A DNA stretch of 64,000 nucleotides from Stigmatella aurantiaca DW4/3-1 (GTDB taxonomy: Bacteria > Myxococcota > Myxococcia > Myxococcales > Myxococcaceae), in assembly GCF_000165485.1 (NCBI RefSeq), contig NC_014623.1, positions 701,501 through 765,500 on the forward strand, read 5' to 3'. This document shows, one piece after another, positions 13,482-17,834 of the stretch (the stretch's first letter is position 1; each line of letters begins with the position of its first letter). A model generated the notes under the pieces. That model was not told the DNA's origin and searched no databases. It saw nothing but the letters and a program-made list of their open reading frames with translations. A program made the position numbers and the translations under genes.

Positions 13482-14105
13482 CTAGGCGTAGAACTCGATG
13501 ATTTTCGCGAGGTCCAGGGCGACGGGCGGGTCGATGTCCTCGGGACGGGTGAGCACCCGGAACCCCTTGCCGCCTTCGAGCAGCGCCACGTGCGAGGGCA
13601 CGCCTCGGTGCGCCGTCTTCTCGCGGACCTGGAGGACCAGCGGGTGCTGGCGGAAGCGCTCCCGGAGCTCCACCGTCGTGCCGGGCTTGAACTCCATGCC
13701 GGGCAGGTTCGCCTTCTTGCCGTCCACGGTGAAGTAGCCGTGGCGCACGAACTGCCGCGCCTGGCGGATGCTGGTGGCGTAGCCGGCGCGCAGCACCATG
13801 GCGTCGAACCGGGACTCGATGAGGGTGATGAGCACCTGGGTCGCGTTCGAGCCGCTGCGCTTGGCCCGGTCCACGTACCGGCGGCACTGCTTCTCGAGCA
13901 GCTCGTACGACAGCTTGAGCTTCTGCTTCTCCATCATCCGAAGCCCGTAGTCCGTCATCTTGGTCTTCTGGGTCGGCCCGTGCTGGCCCGGCGGGTACGG
14001 ACGCCGCAGCGACGGATCCTTGTCGGGATCCTTCGTGGACAGATGTGTGAGTGCCACGAACAGCCGGCGGGCGCGGCGGCCGCGAGGACCTGTGTAGCGA
14101 GCCAT
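13482..14105 (-). CDS. rpsD: ribosomal protein S4 paralogue lacking the zinc-binding cysteines
   Basis: A 207-residue 30S subunit protein S4, the assembly protein that binds 16S rRNA and contains an S4 RNA-binding domain (TSIRQARQFVRHGYFTVDGK). It begins MARYTGPRGRRARR where the zinc form carries a CxxC cluster, and the whole protein has a single Cys. It stands alone, away from the alpha operon of ribosomal proteins. Cysteine-free ribosomal paralogues are usually back-up copies expressed when zinc is scarce, under Zur. A Fur/Zur-like palindrome at 14131-14149 lies 26 bases upstream of its start and fits this. Whether the genome also encodes a zinc-containing S4 cannot be seen here. Confidence 0.92.
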   Translation of the reverse strand: MARYTGPRGRRARRLFVALTHLSTKDPDKDPSLRRPYPPGQHGPTQKTKMTDYGLRMMEKQKLKLSYELLEKQCRRYVDRAKRSGSNATQVLITLIESRFDAMVLRAGYATSIRQARQFVRHGYFTVDGKKANLPGMEFKPGTTVELRERFRQHPLVLQVREKTAHRGVPSHVALLEGGKGFRVLTRPEDIDPPVALDLAKIIEFYA

Positions 14106-14130
14106 CCCCTGAAACTCCTTGAGTGATTGT

Positions 14131-14149
14131 GAATGTGAGAATCATTATC
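14131..14149. promoter_or_regulatory. Fur/Zur-like box between rpsD paralogue and ECF sigma gene
   Basis: The 19 bases GAATGTGAGAATCATTATC match the classical Fur consensus at 15 of 19 positions by my count, with a perfect right half. The site sits in an unusually AT-rich spot in otherwise very GC-rich DNA, 26 bases upstream of the S4 start on one side and about 105 bases upstream of the sigma gene on the other. A Fur-family repressor (Fur or Zur) is the obvious candidate, most directly for the S4 paralogue. Confidence 0.5.
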
Positions 14150-14254
14150 AAATTGAAGGGGAGAGGGGCAAGGAAGATCCTTCCGGTGAAAATTCCGGTG
14201 ACAGTTCCCGTGGGACCGGGTGTTCCCTTGTTCCGAAAGAGGGAGGCGAGTCTG

Positions 14255-14734
14255 GTGTCGATTGACGTGGAGGCCTACTACCGGCGTTACGGGCCCCAGG
14301 TGCTACGGCGCTGCCGCTTCCTCCTGCGAGATGAGGAGAGGGCGGTGGATGCCATGCACGATGTGTTCGTTCAGCTCCTGCGCCATCAGGACCGCTTGAA
14401 GAACAGTGCTCCGTCGAGCCTGCTGCACCAGATTGCCACGCGGGTGTGCCTCAACCGGCTGCGCGGGGCCCGCCGCCGCCCCGAGGACCGTGAGGACGAG
14501 CTGGTGCTGCGCATCGCCTCCGCCGGGGACACCGAGGCGAGGACGGTGGCGCGGGGGCTGCTGAGCCGGCTCTTTGGCCAGGTGCCTGCCTCCAGCCGGG
14601 ACATCGCCGTGCTGCACCTGGTGGATGGCATGACGCTGGAGGAGACCGCCCGCGAGGTGGGTCTGTCCGTCTCCGGGGTGCGCAAGCGCCTCCGGGCCCT
14701 CTCGTCCGTGTTGCAGGAACTGGAGGCCGCATGA
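14255..14734 (+). CDS. ECF-type RNA polymerase sigma factor
   Basis: A 159-residue sigma-70 family factor with only regions 2 and 4, as in ECF factors. Region 2 spans about residues 5-70 (YYRRYGPQVLRRCRFLLRDE, DAMHDVFVQLL); region 4 at the C-terminus contains a helix-turn-helix (MTLEETAREVGLSVSGVRKR). The GTG at 14255 is chosen because GGGAGG lies 8 bases upstream and the frame upstream of it has no family similarity. Its stop overlaps the start of the next gene (ATGA), which encodes a likely anti-sigma factor, and a caspase gene follows with another 4-base overlap, so the three form a tight operon. The signal it answers to is unknown. Confidence 0.85.
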   Translation: MSIDVEAYYRRYGPQVLRRCRFLLRDEERAVDAMHDVFVQLLRHQDRLKNSAPSSLLHQIATRVCLNRLRGARRRPEDREDELVLRIASAGDTEARTVARGLLSRLFGQVPASSRDIAVLHLVDGMTLEETAREVGLSVSGVRKRLRALSSVLQELEAA

Positions 14735-15528
14735 AAACCCCTCATCGCACCCCGGACTGGCTGCTGGAGCGCATCGCCCTGGGCGAGCTGCCCCCGGACG
14801 AGCTGGCCGCCGCCCGCGCACGGCTGGCGCAGGAACCCGATGGCGCGGCCCGGCTGGCCGCGCTCGAGGAGGACAACCGGCGCATCCTGGAGCAGCGGCC
14901 CCCCGCCCTGGTGGCGCGCGAGGTGGAGGCCCTGGCCGCCCGCGCCGAGCGCCTGGAGCCCCTCCAGGAGAAGGCGCATCCGTGGCGCCCTCTGATGCCG
15001 GCCCTGGCCTTCGTGCCGGTGCTGGCCGTGGTCTTCCTGATGGTGCGTCCGGGCCCGCGGCCGCCCGGCGCAGAGCCCATCGCCGAGGTGACGCGCACCA
15101 AGGGCTTGATGCCCCAGCTCGGCCTTCACCGCCTGGGCACGGCCGGTCCGGAGCCCCTCGCCGATGGGGCCCGCGCCGCCGCCCATGACGTGGTGCAGGT
15201 CTCCTATGTGGCGGCGGGCAACCGCTACGGTGCCATCCTCTCTATTGATGGACGGGGCGCCGTCACCCTCCATGCCCCCGAGGGCGGTCTGAACGCCTTG
15301 GCGCTCACGCCTTCCGGGACCCATGCGCTGTCCCGGGCCTACGAACTCGATGACGCCCCCTCCTTCGAGCGGTTCCTCTTCATCGCCTCGGACAGTCCGT
15401 TCACCCTGGAGGAGATTCTCGCCAGCGCTCGGGTGCTCGCCGCATCGAACGAGGCACGCACCGCCCCGCTTCCGCTCCCCCCTGGCTTCCGTCAGGTGTC
15501 CTTGACCCTGGAAAAGACCTCGCCATGA
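14731..15528 (+). CDS. putative anti-sigma factor, single-pass membrane protein
   Basis: A 265-residue protein with the architecture of a membrane anti-sigma factor: a cytoplasmic N-terminal region of about 85 residues (starting MKTPHRTPDWLLERIALGEL, close to the N-termini of anti-sigma domains), one transmembrane helix near residues 88-107 (LMPALAFVPVLAVVFLMV), and an approximately 155-residue periplasmic part without recognised family. No HxxxCxxC zinc motif is present. It overlaps the sigma gene by 4 bases and the caspase gene by 4 bases. The function is inferred from position and topology; an alternative is that it is a sensor or partner for the caspase. Confidence 0.7.
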   Translation: MKTPHRTPDWLLERIALGELPPDELAAARARLAQEPDGAARLAALEEDNRRILEQRPPALVAREVEALAARAERLEPLQEKAHPWRPLMPALAFVPVLAVVFLMVRPGPRPPGAEPIAEVTRTKGLMPQLGLHRLGTAGPEPLADGARAAAHDVVQVSYVAAGNRYGAILSIDGRGAVTLHAPEGGLNALALTPSGTHALSRAYELDDAPSFERFLFIASDSPFTLEEILASARVLAASNEARTAPLPLPPGFRQVSLTLEKTSP

Positions 15529-17834
15529 CCCGCGTTCTTCTTCTGTTGGCATTGCTGGCGGCGCCCATGGCCCACGGGGAGGCTCCCTCGCGGGTGCGCC
15601 GCCTGGCGCTGCTGGTGGGCGTCAACGATGGAGGGCCTGGGCGTGCGCGCCTGCGCTATGCCGCCTCGGATGCCCAGTCCTTCGCCCGGGTGCTGGGGGA
15701 GCTGGGTGGGGTCACCCCCGCGGATCGGGTGATGCTGCTGGAGACGGGGCGCGCCGGACTGCTGGAGGGGTTCACCCGATTGAAGGCCCTGGCCGAGTCC
15801 GCCCGGGCCTCGGGGGCGCACCGGGTGGAGGTGCTCCTGTATTACTCGGGGCACTCGGACGATGAGGGGCTGCTGCTCCAGGGCGAGCGCATGGACTATG
15901 GCGAGCTGCGCCGCGCGCTGGGGACGCTGCCCGCGGACGTGCGCATCGCGGTGCTGGACTCGTGTGCCTCGGGGGCCTTCGCGCGCCGCAAGGGCGGCTC
16001 CCCCCGGCCGGCCTTCCTGGTGGATTCGGGCGTTCAGGTGAAGGGCCAGGCCATCCTCACCTCGTCCAGCGAGGACGAGGCTTCCCAGGAGTCGGACCGG
16101 CTGGGGGGCTCCTTTTTCACCCACCACCTCGTCTCCGGACTGCGCGGGGCGGCGGACGTGACGCGGGATGGGCGGGTGACGCTCAACGAGGCCTACCAGT
16201 TCGCCTTCAACGAGACGCTGGCGCGCACCGAGCGCACCCAGGGCGGCGCCCAGCACCCGGCCTATGACATCGAGATGGCGGGCACGGGGGATCTGGTGAT
16301 GACCGACCTGCGTGCCACGTCGGCGGGGCTGGTGCTGACGGAGGCGCTGGAGGGACGCCTTTATGTGCGCGACGAGTCGGGCGCGCTGGTGGTGGAGTTG
16401 ATGAAGACGGCCGGCCGGCCCGCGGAGCTGGGGCTGGCGCCCGGCCGCTACCGGGTGCGGCGTGAGCTGGGAGGGGGCATGTCCGAGGCCAGCCTCGTGC
16501 TCACGGAAGGAAAGAGCACGCCGCTGGCGGCGGCCCACTTCAGCTCGGTGCTGAGCGAGGCCACGGTGTCACGCGGAGGCCCCGCGGGGGCCGAGGCCGA
16601 AGTCTCCGCGGTGGGGCCTGCCCGCAGGCGCGTGCCGTTCAACGCCAGCCTCGTCCCCGGGGTGAGCTTCAACGCGCTGGTGGCGGGCGAGGCGCCGGTG
16701 GAGAACGCCTTTGCGCTCGGGGTGGTCAACGACGGCACGGCCCTGCATGGCGCGGCCCTGGGACTGGGGGCCAATGTGTATGGCGAAGAGGTGAGGGGGC
16801 TCTCGGCGGCGGTGGGCATGAACATGGCGGGTGGCAAGACGCGGGGTGTCCAGGCCTCCGTGGGCCTCAACATCTCGGGAGGGGCGCTGAACGGGATGCA
16901 GGCGGCGGTGGGGGCGAACTGGGCGGGGGGGAGCGTGGAAGTGGGGCAGCTCGCGGCCGGGGTGAACGTGGCGATGGGGAGCGTCTCCGGCGTGCAGGGG
17001 TCCGCGGGGGTGAACGTGGCCGCGGGAGACTTCCGGGGAGCGCAGGCCACGGCCGGGGTGAACGTGACGCGGGGGGCCTTCCGCGGCCTCCAACTGGCGT
17101 CGGGGATCAACATGACGCAGAAGGGCTTCCACGGTGCTCAGGTCGCGGCGGGGGTGAACTGGGCGGGGGGCGCTCTGTCCGGTGTGCAGGTGAGTTCGGG
17201 CTTCAACCGCGCGCAGGGCCTCTCGGGCTTGCAGCTAGGTTTGCTCAACGTGGGCGGCGATGTGACGGGCGCTCAGGTGGGGCTCGTCAACATCGGCGGG
17301 GTGGTGAAGGGCGGCCAGGTGGGGTTGCTCAACGTGGCGAAGGAAGTGCACGGGGTTCCGCTGGGGCTGCTCTCCTTCGTGAAGGAAGGCCAACGCCATG
17401 TGGAGTTCTGGTCGAGCGATATCCAGCTCACCAACGTGGGGGTGAAGCTCGGCAGCCAATACGTCTACTCCACGCTCGTGGCGGGCATCGGGCCGGATGA
17501 CCGGTTCCAGCGCTTCAGCCTGGGGTTGGGCGTGGGGGTGCACCTTCCCCTGTCCTCGCGCTTCTGGGTGGACGTGGACACGGTGGCCAGCGGCGTCCAC
17601 AGCCGGGAGGAGCCCTTCCAGGGAGAGACCCTCCTGGCGCAGGCGCGGGTGATGGCTGGCTTCCAGATCTTCTCGCACTTCGCCGTGTTCGCGGGCCCCA
17701 CGTACAACGCCTACTTCGCGTTCTCGCCAGAGGGTCCACGCTCCATCACGACGATGAAGGTGTCCGAGCACAAACTGGGGAGCGATGGCACGGTGCAGCA
17801 CTGGCCGGGCTTGCAACTCGGCCTGCGCATCTGA
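15525..17834 (+). CDS. secreted caspase-family (C14) protein with surface repeats and barrel-like C-terminus
   Basis: A 769-residue exported protein. A signal peptide (MTRVLLLLALLAAPMAHGEA) is followed by a p20-like caspase domain (about 25-260) with catalytic His110 in LLYYSGHSDDEG and Cys147 in VLDSCASGAF. Residues about 260-400 are a linker with an Ig-like stretch. Residues about 420-620 hold roughly twelve tandem repeats of form GxQxxxGxNxxxGxxx, 16 residues each at first and 14 in the last few, like the LA_2272-type surface repeats. Residues about 625-769 have alternating hydrophobic strands ending GLQLGLRI, typical of an outer-membrane strand. It is last in an ECF sigma / anti-sigma operon. 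A caspase placed at the cell surface or periplasm is unusual. Confidence 0.83.
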   Translation: MTRVLLLLALLAAPMAHGEAPSRVRRLALLVGVNDGGPGRARLRYAASDAQSFARVLGELGGVTPADRVMLLETGRAGLLEGFTRLKALAESARASGAHRVEVLLYYSGHSDDEGLLLQGERMDYGELRRALGTLPADVRIAVLDSCASGAFARRKGGSPRPAFLVDSGVQVKGQAILTSSSEDEASQESDRLGGSFFTHHLVSGLRGAADVTRDGRVTLNEAYQFAFNETLARTERTQGGAQHPAYDIEMAGTGDLVMTDLRATSAGLVLTEALEGRLYVRDESGALVVELMKTAGRPAELGLAPGRYRVRRELGGGMSEASLVLTEGKSTPLAAAHFSSVLSEATVSRGGPAGAEAEVSAVGPARRRVPFNASLVPGVSFNALVAGEAPVENAFALGVVNDGTALHGAALGLGANVYGEEVRGLSAAVGMNMAGGKTRGVQASVGLNISGGALNGMQAAVGANWAGGSVEVGQLAAGVNVAMGSVSGVQGSAGVNVAAGDFRGAQATAGVNVTRGAFRGLQLASGINMTQKGFHGAQVAAGVNWAGGALSGVQVSSGFNRAQGLSGLQLGLLNVGGDVTGAQVGLVNIGGVVKGGQVGLLNVAKEVHGVPLGLLSFVKEGQRHVEFWSSDIQLTNVGVKLGSQYVYSTLVAGIGPDDRFQRFSLGLGVGVHLPLSSRFWVDVDTVASGVHSREEPFQGETLLAQARVMAGFQIFSHFAVFAGPTYNAYFAFSPEGPRSITTMKVSEHKLGSDGTVQHWPGLQLGLRI

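Follow-up and report, generated by a model that had tools for sequence, protein, structure and literature searches.

Described here is a three-gene cassette of Stigmatella aurantiaca DW4/3-1 in which the genes for an extracytoplasmic function (ECF) sigma factor, an anti-sigma factor and an exported caspase follow one another with an ATGA overlap at each junction (Table 1). It lies in a stretch of 64,000 nt (‘the window’; positions 701,501–765,500 of contig NC_014623.1), part of a complete 10.26-Mb myxobacterial genome, and coordinates are those of the window unless stated otherwise. The first-pass annotation had proposed three genes with 4-base overlaps, encoding a stress-type sigma factor, a putative anti-sigma factor and a caspase with a signal peptide, an active-site Cys147, 12 surface-type repeats and a barrel-like end. 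The gene limits hold as proposed and, apart from the details of the repeats, so do the protein assignments. Labels beginning with G, C and L denote genomes, contigs and loci of the comparative analysis.

Genes and protein features

The sigma protein (P0001) scores above the Pfam gathering thresholds for both Sigma70_r2 and Sigma70_r4_2 and, being short and made up of regions 2 and 4 only, belongs to the ECF (group IV sigma-70) class. An alternative, longer GTG start exists at 14123; were it used, the promoter motif described below would fall within the gene.

In the AlphaFold2 model the anti-sigma factor consists of a cytoplasmic four-helix domain (residues 9–74), a single membrane helix and a periplasmic beta-sandwich. 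The four helices (9–17, 22–33, 38–55 and 58–74) mostly have a predicted local distance difference test score (pLDDT) above 90 and, next to a sigma factor gene, have the form of a class I anti-sigma domain (ASDI). The Hx3Cx2C signature of zinc-binding anti-sigma (ZAS) proteins is present in 60 of 84 homologues, at positions 31, 35 and 38 of the window protein, where Arg31, Glu35 and Gly38 replace the ligands. Together, signature and helical domain support a class I (ZAS-type) anti-sigma factor that has lost its zinc ligands and is predicted to bind the sigma factor. The window protein itself (P0002) has no Pfam match, DUF4384 (PF14326) included, and a fold search of the Protein Data Bank with its model returned nothing at E 0.001. 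Among homologues, L120 matches PF14326 above cut-off (9.9e-7), whereas L071 and L257 match it weakly; some caspase homologues elsewhere carry a fused DUF4384 domain (PMC7475262, PMC6426788). The linker around Lys124-Gly125 has a pLDDT of about 77 and precedes the first strand of the sandwich, at residue 129.

The caspase (P0003) begins with a Sec-type signal, MTRVLLLLALLAAPMAHGEA, and its match to Peptidase_C14 (PF00656, residues 25–248) exceeds the Pfam gathering score. Its model aligns with Arabidopsis metacaspase 4 over 205 residues at 2.8 Å (VIA-align Z 19.9) and has the p20 caspase fold, with fold matches to metacaspases and caspases alike. The model for EACC1-associated caspases (NF047832) stays below threshold (61.5 bits against 140), and a sequence search of solved structures with the whole protein gave nothing meaningful. 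Cys147 (codon 15963–15965), its partner His110 (codon 15852–15854), Asp49 and Asp145 are invariant in 106 of 106 homologues. The two aspartates, equated with Asp95 and Asp211 of TbMC2, form the acidic S1 pocket of C14B enzymes with a basic P1 preference, and cleavage after Arg or Lys is predicted.

Short-type relatives of about 530 aa can be aligned to approximately residue 340, i.e. through the small beta-sandwich behind the caspase domain; their C-terminal sequences differ from those of the long type, yet are also barrel-like. In the window protein the sandwich is followed by roughly ten 16-residue and four 14-residue repeats. At a lag of 16 residues sequence identity is 0.33, a value that 0 of 2000 shuffles reach (the highest gives 0.21), and no direct repeats underlie them at the DNA level. 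The repeats are thus real, but number about 14 rather than 12, and the surface-repeat model LA_2272 (NF047436) reaches 21.7 here against a cut-off of 25, whereas relatives pass it (L257, 70.5; L007, 33.4; L058, 28.3).

The modelled strands of the C-terminal end are matched by family-wide sequence properties. An alternating, barrel-type C-terminus is found in 75% of the caspase family and in 6% of 808 other long open reading frames (ORFs) of the same loci, a control set of which many members are spurious and in which the anti-sigma factors score 2%. A hydrophobic or aromatic C-terminal residue is found in 82% of the family and in 17% of the control ORFs. The barrel would anchor the caspase in the outer membrane, with its protease domain and repeats facing the periplasm. 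DNA of a Persicobacter psychrovividus plasmid (L302) matches the repeat and barrel part (residues 371–769) without the caspase domain, so this half of the protein seems to circulate as a module in Bacteroidota.

Upstream of the sigma gene, an exact Fur/Zur-type box (TGAGAATCATTATCA, 14136–14150; 0 mismatches, with a mean of 0.06 matches expected when up to 2 mismatches are allowed) sits before a divergent gene for ribosomal protein S4 (13482–14105, minus strand). Since this S4 copy also seems to lack zinc-binding cysteines, zinc-responsive control of the S4 gene is suggested.

Table 1. Features of the cassette, with window coordinates
Feature	Coordinates	Strand	Basis
ECF-type promoter motif, GACAGTTC-N11-GGTGTTCC, 28 bases ahead of the sigma start codon	14200..14226	+	Phylogenetic footprint, constant N11
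ECF sigma factor, 159 aa, GTG start	14255..14734	+	Sigma70_r2 5.4e-11; Sigma70_r4_2 2e-6; TIGR02937 57.1 bits (cut-off 42.9)
Anti-sigma factor, 265 aa	14731..15528	+	AlphaFold2 model, mean pLDDT 87.7; zf-HC2 and DUF4384 matches among homologues
Predicted transmembrane helix of anti-sigma factor, about residues 92–106	15004..15048	+	Hydrophobic segment PALAFVPVLAVVFLMV; modelled helix 95–104
Lys124-Gly125 of anti-sigma factor, candidate protease site within the linker that joins membrane helix and periplasmic domain	15100..15105	+	Lys-Gly in 83/84 homologues
DUF4384-like periplasmic beta-sandwich of anti-sigma factor, residues 129–262	15115..15516	+	AlphaFold2 model; PF14326 in homologues
Exported caspase (orthocaspase-like), 769 aa	15525..17834	+	Peptidase_C14 1.6e-8; fold match to metacaspase
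Signal peptide of caspase, residues 1 to about 19	15525..15581	+	Sequence; hydrophobic leader ahead of the caspase domain in 106/106 homologues
Caspase domain, residues 24–255, with Asp49, His110, Asp145, Cys147	15594..16289	+	Four residues in 106/106; fold match 21–264
Small beta-sandwich, about residues 249–342	16269..16550	+	AlphaFold2 secondary structure; present in short-type relatives
About 14 LA_2272-like repeats, period 16 aa then 14 aa	16749..17390	+	Lag-16 periodicity; NF047436 sub-threshold here
C-terminal outer-membrane beta-barrel-like domain, final strand amphipathic	17430..17831	+	AlphaFold2 strands of 8–15 residues

Promoter motif, predicted regulon and inheritance of the cassette

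Orthologues of the sigma gene share GACAGTTY-N11-GGTGTTYC just before the gene, in upstream DNA that is otherwise largely unrelated. The two halves of the motif probably serve as −35 and −10 elements, and the copy in the window is the sole exact match in the 10.26-Mb genome. In 15 genomes the slightly relaxed form GACAGWTY-N11-GGTGTTY is matched exactly 25 times; the reversed control gave no match, and some 0.04 per 10 Mb would be expected from base composition. Eleven of the 25 precede sigma operons, four anti-sigma and caspase pairs, four exported repeat-barrel proteins without a caspase, four DUF2807 lipoproteins (three were scanned, each with PF10988 at 1e-30 or better) and one a TonB-type secreted protein, with one unclear; 24 of the 25 thus lie ahead of the operon or of genes for repeat-barrel, DUF2807 or other envelope proteins. 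Five more matches came from a second set of 15 genomes, ahead of two DUF2807-type lipoproteins, a similar lipoprotein (G031), another lipoprotein and a short protein; the seven genomes of this set that yielded short-type cassettes only had no match. In G031 the DUF2807-like lipoprotein gene with the motif (L373; G031:C329:12875) has a full sigma/anti-sigma/caspase cassette about 1 kb downstream. Searches allowing one mismatch were discarded, their counts being near the control and one recurrent match lying inside a conserved thioredoxin-like coding region. The distribution of the exact motif strongly supports transcription of the operon by its own sigma factor from the predicted promoter at 14200–14226.

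Relatives of the caspase were found in 53 of the 59 genomes sampled around the window. A sigma and then an anti-sigma gene lie directly upstream on the same strand at 86 of 106 caspase loci from myxobacterial genomes, an arrangement beyond chance, and a 4-base overlap is kept at 71/86 and 75/91 of the junctions. The order sought in other myxobacteria by the first-pass annotation is therefore widely kept, and the His110–Cys147 dyad is intact at every locus, so that the two outcomes named there as refuting, a caspase domain without activity and an operon order not kept in close relatives, are not borne out. Full triads of the same long architecture also occur in metagenome-assembled genomes (MAGs) of Spirochaetota, Fermentibacteria and FCPU426. 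Distances of sigma factor, anti-sigma factor and caspase correlate at 0.87–0.92 (Mantel p 0.001, caspase versus anti-sigma factor), which indicates that the genes are inherited together. The view that the lost operons are artefacts was rejected: in a tree of 186 caspase domains, parsimony makes the complete cassette ancestral and yields two main derived losses. One derived group consists of 14 caspases with neither sigma nor anti-sigma gene, the other of 13 that have kept the anti-sigma gene only; three anti-sigma-only cases of the first set (L059, L094 and L096) are contig ends.

Several variants of the cassette were observed. The window genome (G000:C1) has four further caspase genes, at 4.82 Mb (L007), 7.01 Mb (L008), 7.12 Mb (L010) and 8.31 Mb (L009); one is an orphan that has repeats and a barrel, two stand with sigma and anti-sigma genes in the same order as in the window, and one is divergent from a sigma/anti-sigma pair. 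At L175 (G035:C47) a matrixin-type metalloprotease (PF00413 above cut-off; NF041905, a myxosortase-dependent family, below its cut-off) replaces the caspase as third gene and is followed by a second similar gene. The order caspase, sigma, anti-sigma occurs at L177 (G033) and L179 (G013); at L177 the anti-sigma gene is followed by one for an exported 466-aa protein.

The 13 caspases preceded by an anti-sigma gene alone come from Myxococcus, Pyxidicoccus, Citreicoccus, G028 and one record labelled Comamonas. In G028, G059, G060 and G061 a sigma orthologue (85–89% identical) lies at a separate locus, followed by its own anti-sigma gene and a gene for a signal peptide and the C-terminal barrel alone; G062 also has such a barrel-only gene. 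The anti-sigma and caspase pairs have kept the promoter motif at 14–15 of 16 positions in 10 of the 11 scanned and at 13 in one (random mean about 10.5). The sigma-binding domain of their anti-sigma factors is 75% identical within the clade, compared with 77% in sigma-linked proteins. The simplest account is a duplication followed by reciprocal loss, with the pair now controlled in trans by the remaining sigma factor. In Myxococcus the split amounts to a natural experiment, in which sigma factor and caspase are at separate loci and share one promoter motif. Of all the evidence it argues most strongly for the caspase being a target of this sigma factor, because the caspase gene, once moved away, kept the promoter. 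Direct sigma control of the caspase, as claimed in the first-pass annotation, is thus well supported by comparative genomics.

The caspase in a probable envelope-stress circuit

Homologues of caspases are numerous in bacteria, few of them have a known substrate and a link to programmed cell death is disputed. The cassette family connects one large group of these proteins with a sigma factor of its own, a particular anti-sigma factor, a promoter and a small predicted set of envelope targets. The function of a bacterial caspase can therefore be tested directly, by way of a defined signalling circuit, in an organism amenable to genetics. We consider it probable that the cassette encodes a sigma-driven envelope-stress circuit whose output is a periplasmic caspase tethered to the outer membrane. 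The anti-sigma factor would span the inner membrane, with a DUF4384-like domain in the periplasm and N-terminal helices that hold the ECF sigma factor. An envelope signal would free the sigma factor, which would transcribe its own operon to give more sigma factor, anti-sigma factor and caspase. The caspase would then be exported, fixed by its barrel in the outer membrane, and cleave periplasmic proteins after basic residues. The response looks like envelope remodelling or quality control, with the caspase as proteolytic arm, because in relatives the predicted regulon extends to repeat-barrel outer-membrane proteins and DUF2807 lipoproteins. Read from the sequence are gene order, coupling, catalytic residues, co-inheritance and promoter conservation in cis and in trans.

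Several points weigh against this circuit. Sigma binding, membrane location, signal and substrate are predictions from sequences and models, and the barrel in particular depends on sequence together with a model of predicted template modelling score (pTM) 0.46. The motif was defined on sigma operons, so that independent evidence is confined to the split pairs and the further targets. In the window genome no target was found besides the operon itself; its single DUF2807 gene was rejected as a candidate, having no copy of the motif. Furthermore, the motif is absent ahead of the orphan caspases (six members scanned), and this 14-member clade, with the member at 4.82 Mb of the window genome, would function outside the circuit.

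It is possible, though doubtful, that the caspase is also the input of the circuit. Anchored in the outer membrane, it would bridge the periplasm and act as a site-1 protease that cuts the anti-sigma factor after Lys124, in the manner of regulated intramembrane proteolysis; a site-2 protease, homologues of which are present in the window genome, would complete release of the sigma factor and so raise caspase levels in a positive feedback. Lys124-Gly125 is all but invariant and lies in the periplasmic linker, the conserved Asp49 and Asp145 suit a basic P1 residue (PMC6426788), anti-sigma factor and caspase remain paired after loss of the sigma gene, and the fusions of DUF4384 to caspase homologues noted above would fit as well. 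A precedent exists in the caspase-like Csx29, which cleaves the ECF inhibitor Csx30 (PMC10028731). However, Lys-Gly is also kept in five anti-sigma factors without an adjacent caspase gene (L170, L175, L176, L180 and L183), including that of the metalloprotease cassette; it may be structural, and was rejected as proof of caspase cleavage for this reason. Arg122 is present in 64 of 84 caspase-linked anti-sigma factors and in one of the five without a caspase, a difference confounded by lineage, and is missing in some anti-sigma and caspase pairs. When divergence was analysed by partial correlation, the periplasmic domain of the anti-sigma factor did not stand out as partner of the caspase. Cassettes of sigma factor, anti-sigma factor and barrel without a caspase are conserved in Myxococcus, and the retained pair could just as well be a target driven by the sigma factor and supplied with its own anti-sigma factor. 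Proteolytic sensing of damage, another role suggested in the first-pass annotation, is possible. The fuller proposal, in which the outer-membrane caspase is the site-1 protease at Lys124-Gly125, frees the sigma factor, boosts its own synthesis and has served as an ancient sensor from Myxococcota to spirochaetes, appears unlikely. If the caspase does cut the anti-sigma factor, the sensing of envelope stress would involve a type of protease not established in that role.

Rather unlikely, too, is that the barrel end is the sensor, contacting the anti-sigma factor in the style of cell-surface signalling, with the caspase domain an accessory that lineages may lose. The third gene in G028 and four Myxococcus genomes would suit this, since it encodes signal peptide and barrel, lies directly after the sigma and anti-sigma genes where checked, and has pairwise dN/dS (nonsynonymous to synonymous substitution) ratios of 0.24–0.49 in the three compared; barrel-like C-termini are moreover common to long and short caspase types despite their differing sequences. 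The same genomes nevertheless retain an intact caspase and anti-sigma gene at the second locus, behind the same motif, and no features of TonB-dependent receptors were seen.

The self- or prey-killing suggested in the first-pass annotation found no specific support. A sigma-induced toxin would have a place in the developmental lysis of myxobacterial fruiting bodies, for which such enzymes have been proposed as candidates (PMC3501461), and the caspase does carry an export signal. Yet it is predicted to be tethered to the cell's own outer membrane, the other predicted targets of the sigma factor are envelope proteins, and spirochaete and Fermentibacteria MAGs have full cassettes as well; with no PADLOC match either, this role is very unlikely. 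Anti-phage defence was rejected, again with no PADLOC match. A non-catalytic binding module is scarcely credible, for although inactive pseudo-caspases are known in other bacterial lineages (PMC6426788), His110, Cys147, Asp49 and Asp145 are unaltered throughout the family.

Relation to known systems

The association of caspases with sigma factors is not new, as four of the five caspase genes of M. xanthus were reported in sigma-factor operons in 2012, with further such operons in Anaeromyxobacter, Haliangium, Sorangium, Ralstonia and Fibrobacter (Asplund-Samuelsson 2012; PMC3501461). These metacaspase/sigma-70 operons represent the same association as the window cassette. The anti-sigma factor, outer-membrane barrel end, promoter, regulon and split arrangement are not named there, and function was not tested. 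What appears new here is the identity of the anti-sigma factor, the outer-membrane end, the promoter with its predicted regulon, and the split; no description of these was found in the papers searched, though the main ECF classification may list the group.

ECF54 sigma factors, which have CHAT-domain neighbours, likewise occur among protease genes, caspase-like ones included, but are described as lacking an anti-sigma factor (PMC8999054), which in the window cassette is the middle gene. The Leptospira repeat proteins LA_2272 and LA_2273 (NF047436) share a related repeat unit, which in the window protein is fused to a caspase within a sigma/anti-sigma operon; spirochaete MAGs carry the whole cassette, with LA_2272-type repeats above cut-off in the one scanned.

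The type III-E CRISPR system CASP (PMC10028731) also encodes a caspase-like protease, an ECF sigma factor and its inhibitor together. CASP is cytoplasmic and RNA-guided, with the CHAT-type protease Csx29 (TPR-CHAT), the inhibitor Csx30 and CASP-sigma, whereas the window protease is an exported C14 caspase and its anti-sigma factor a membrane-spanning protein of class I. No CRISPR genes were noticed near the cassette and no PADLOC matches were obtained, although no search aimed at Cas7-11 was made.

With the RpoE-RseA-DegS-RseP system of E. coli the cassette shares an ECF sigma factor, a single-pass anti-sigma factor, an exported protease and an autoregulated operon. DegS, however, is encoded elsewhere and is a PDZ serine protease of the inner membrane, whereas the protease of the window cassette is the product of the third operon gene, a caspase with a predicted outer-membrane end.

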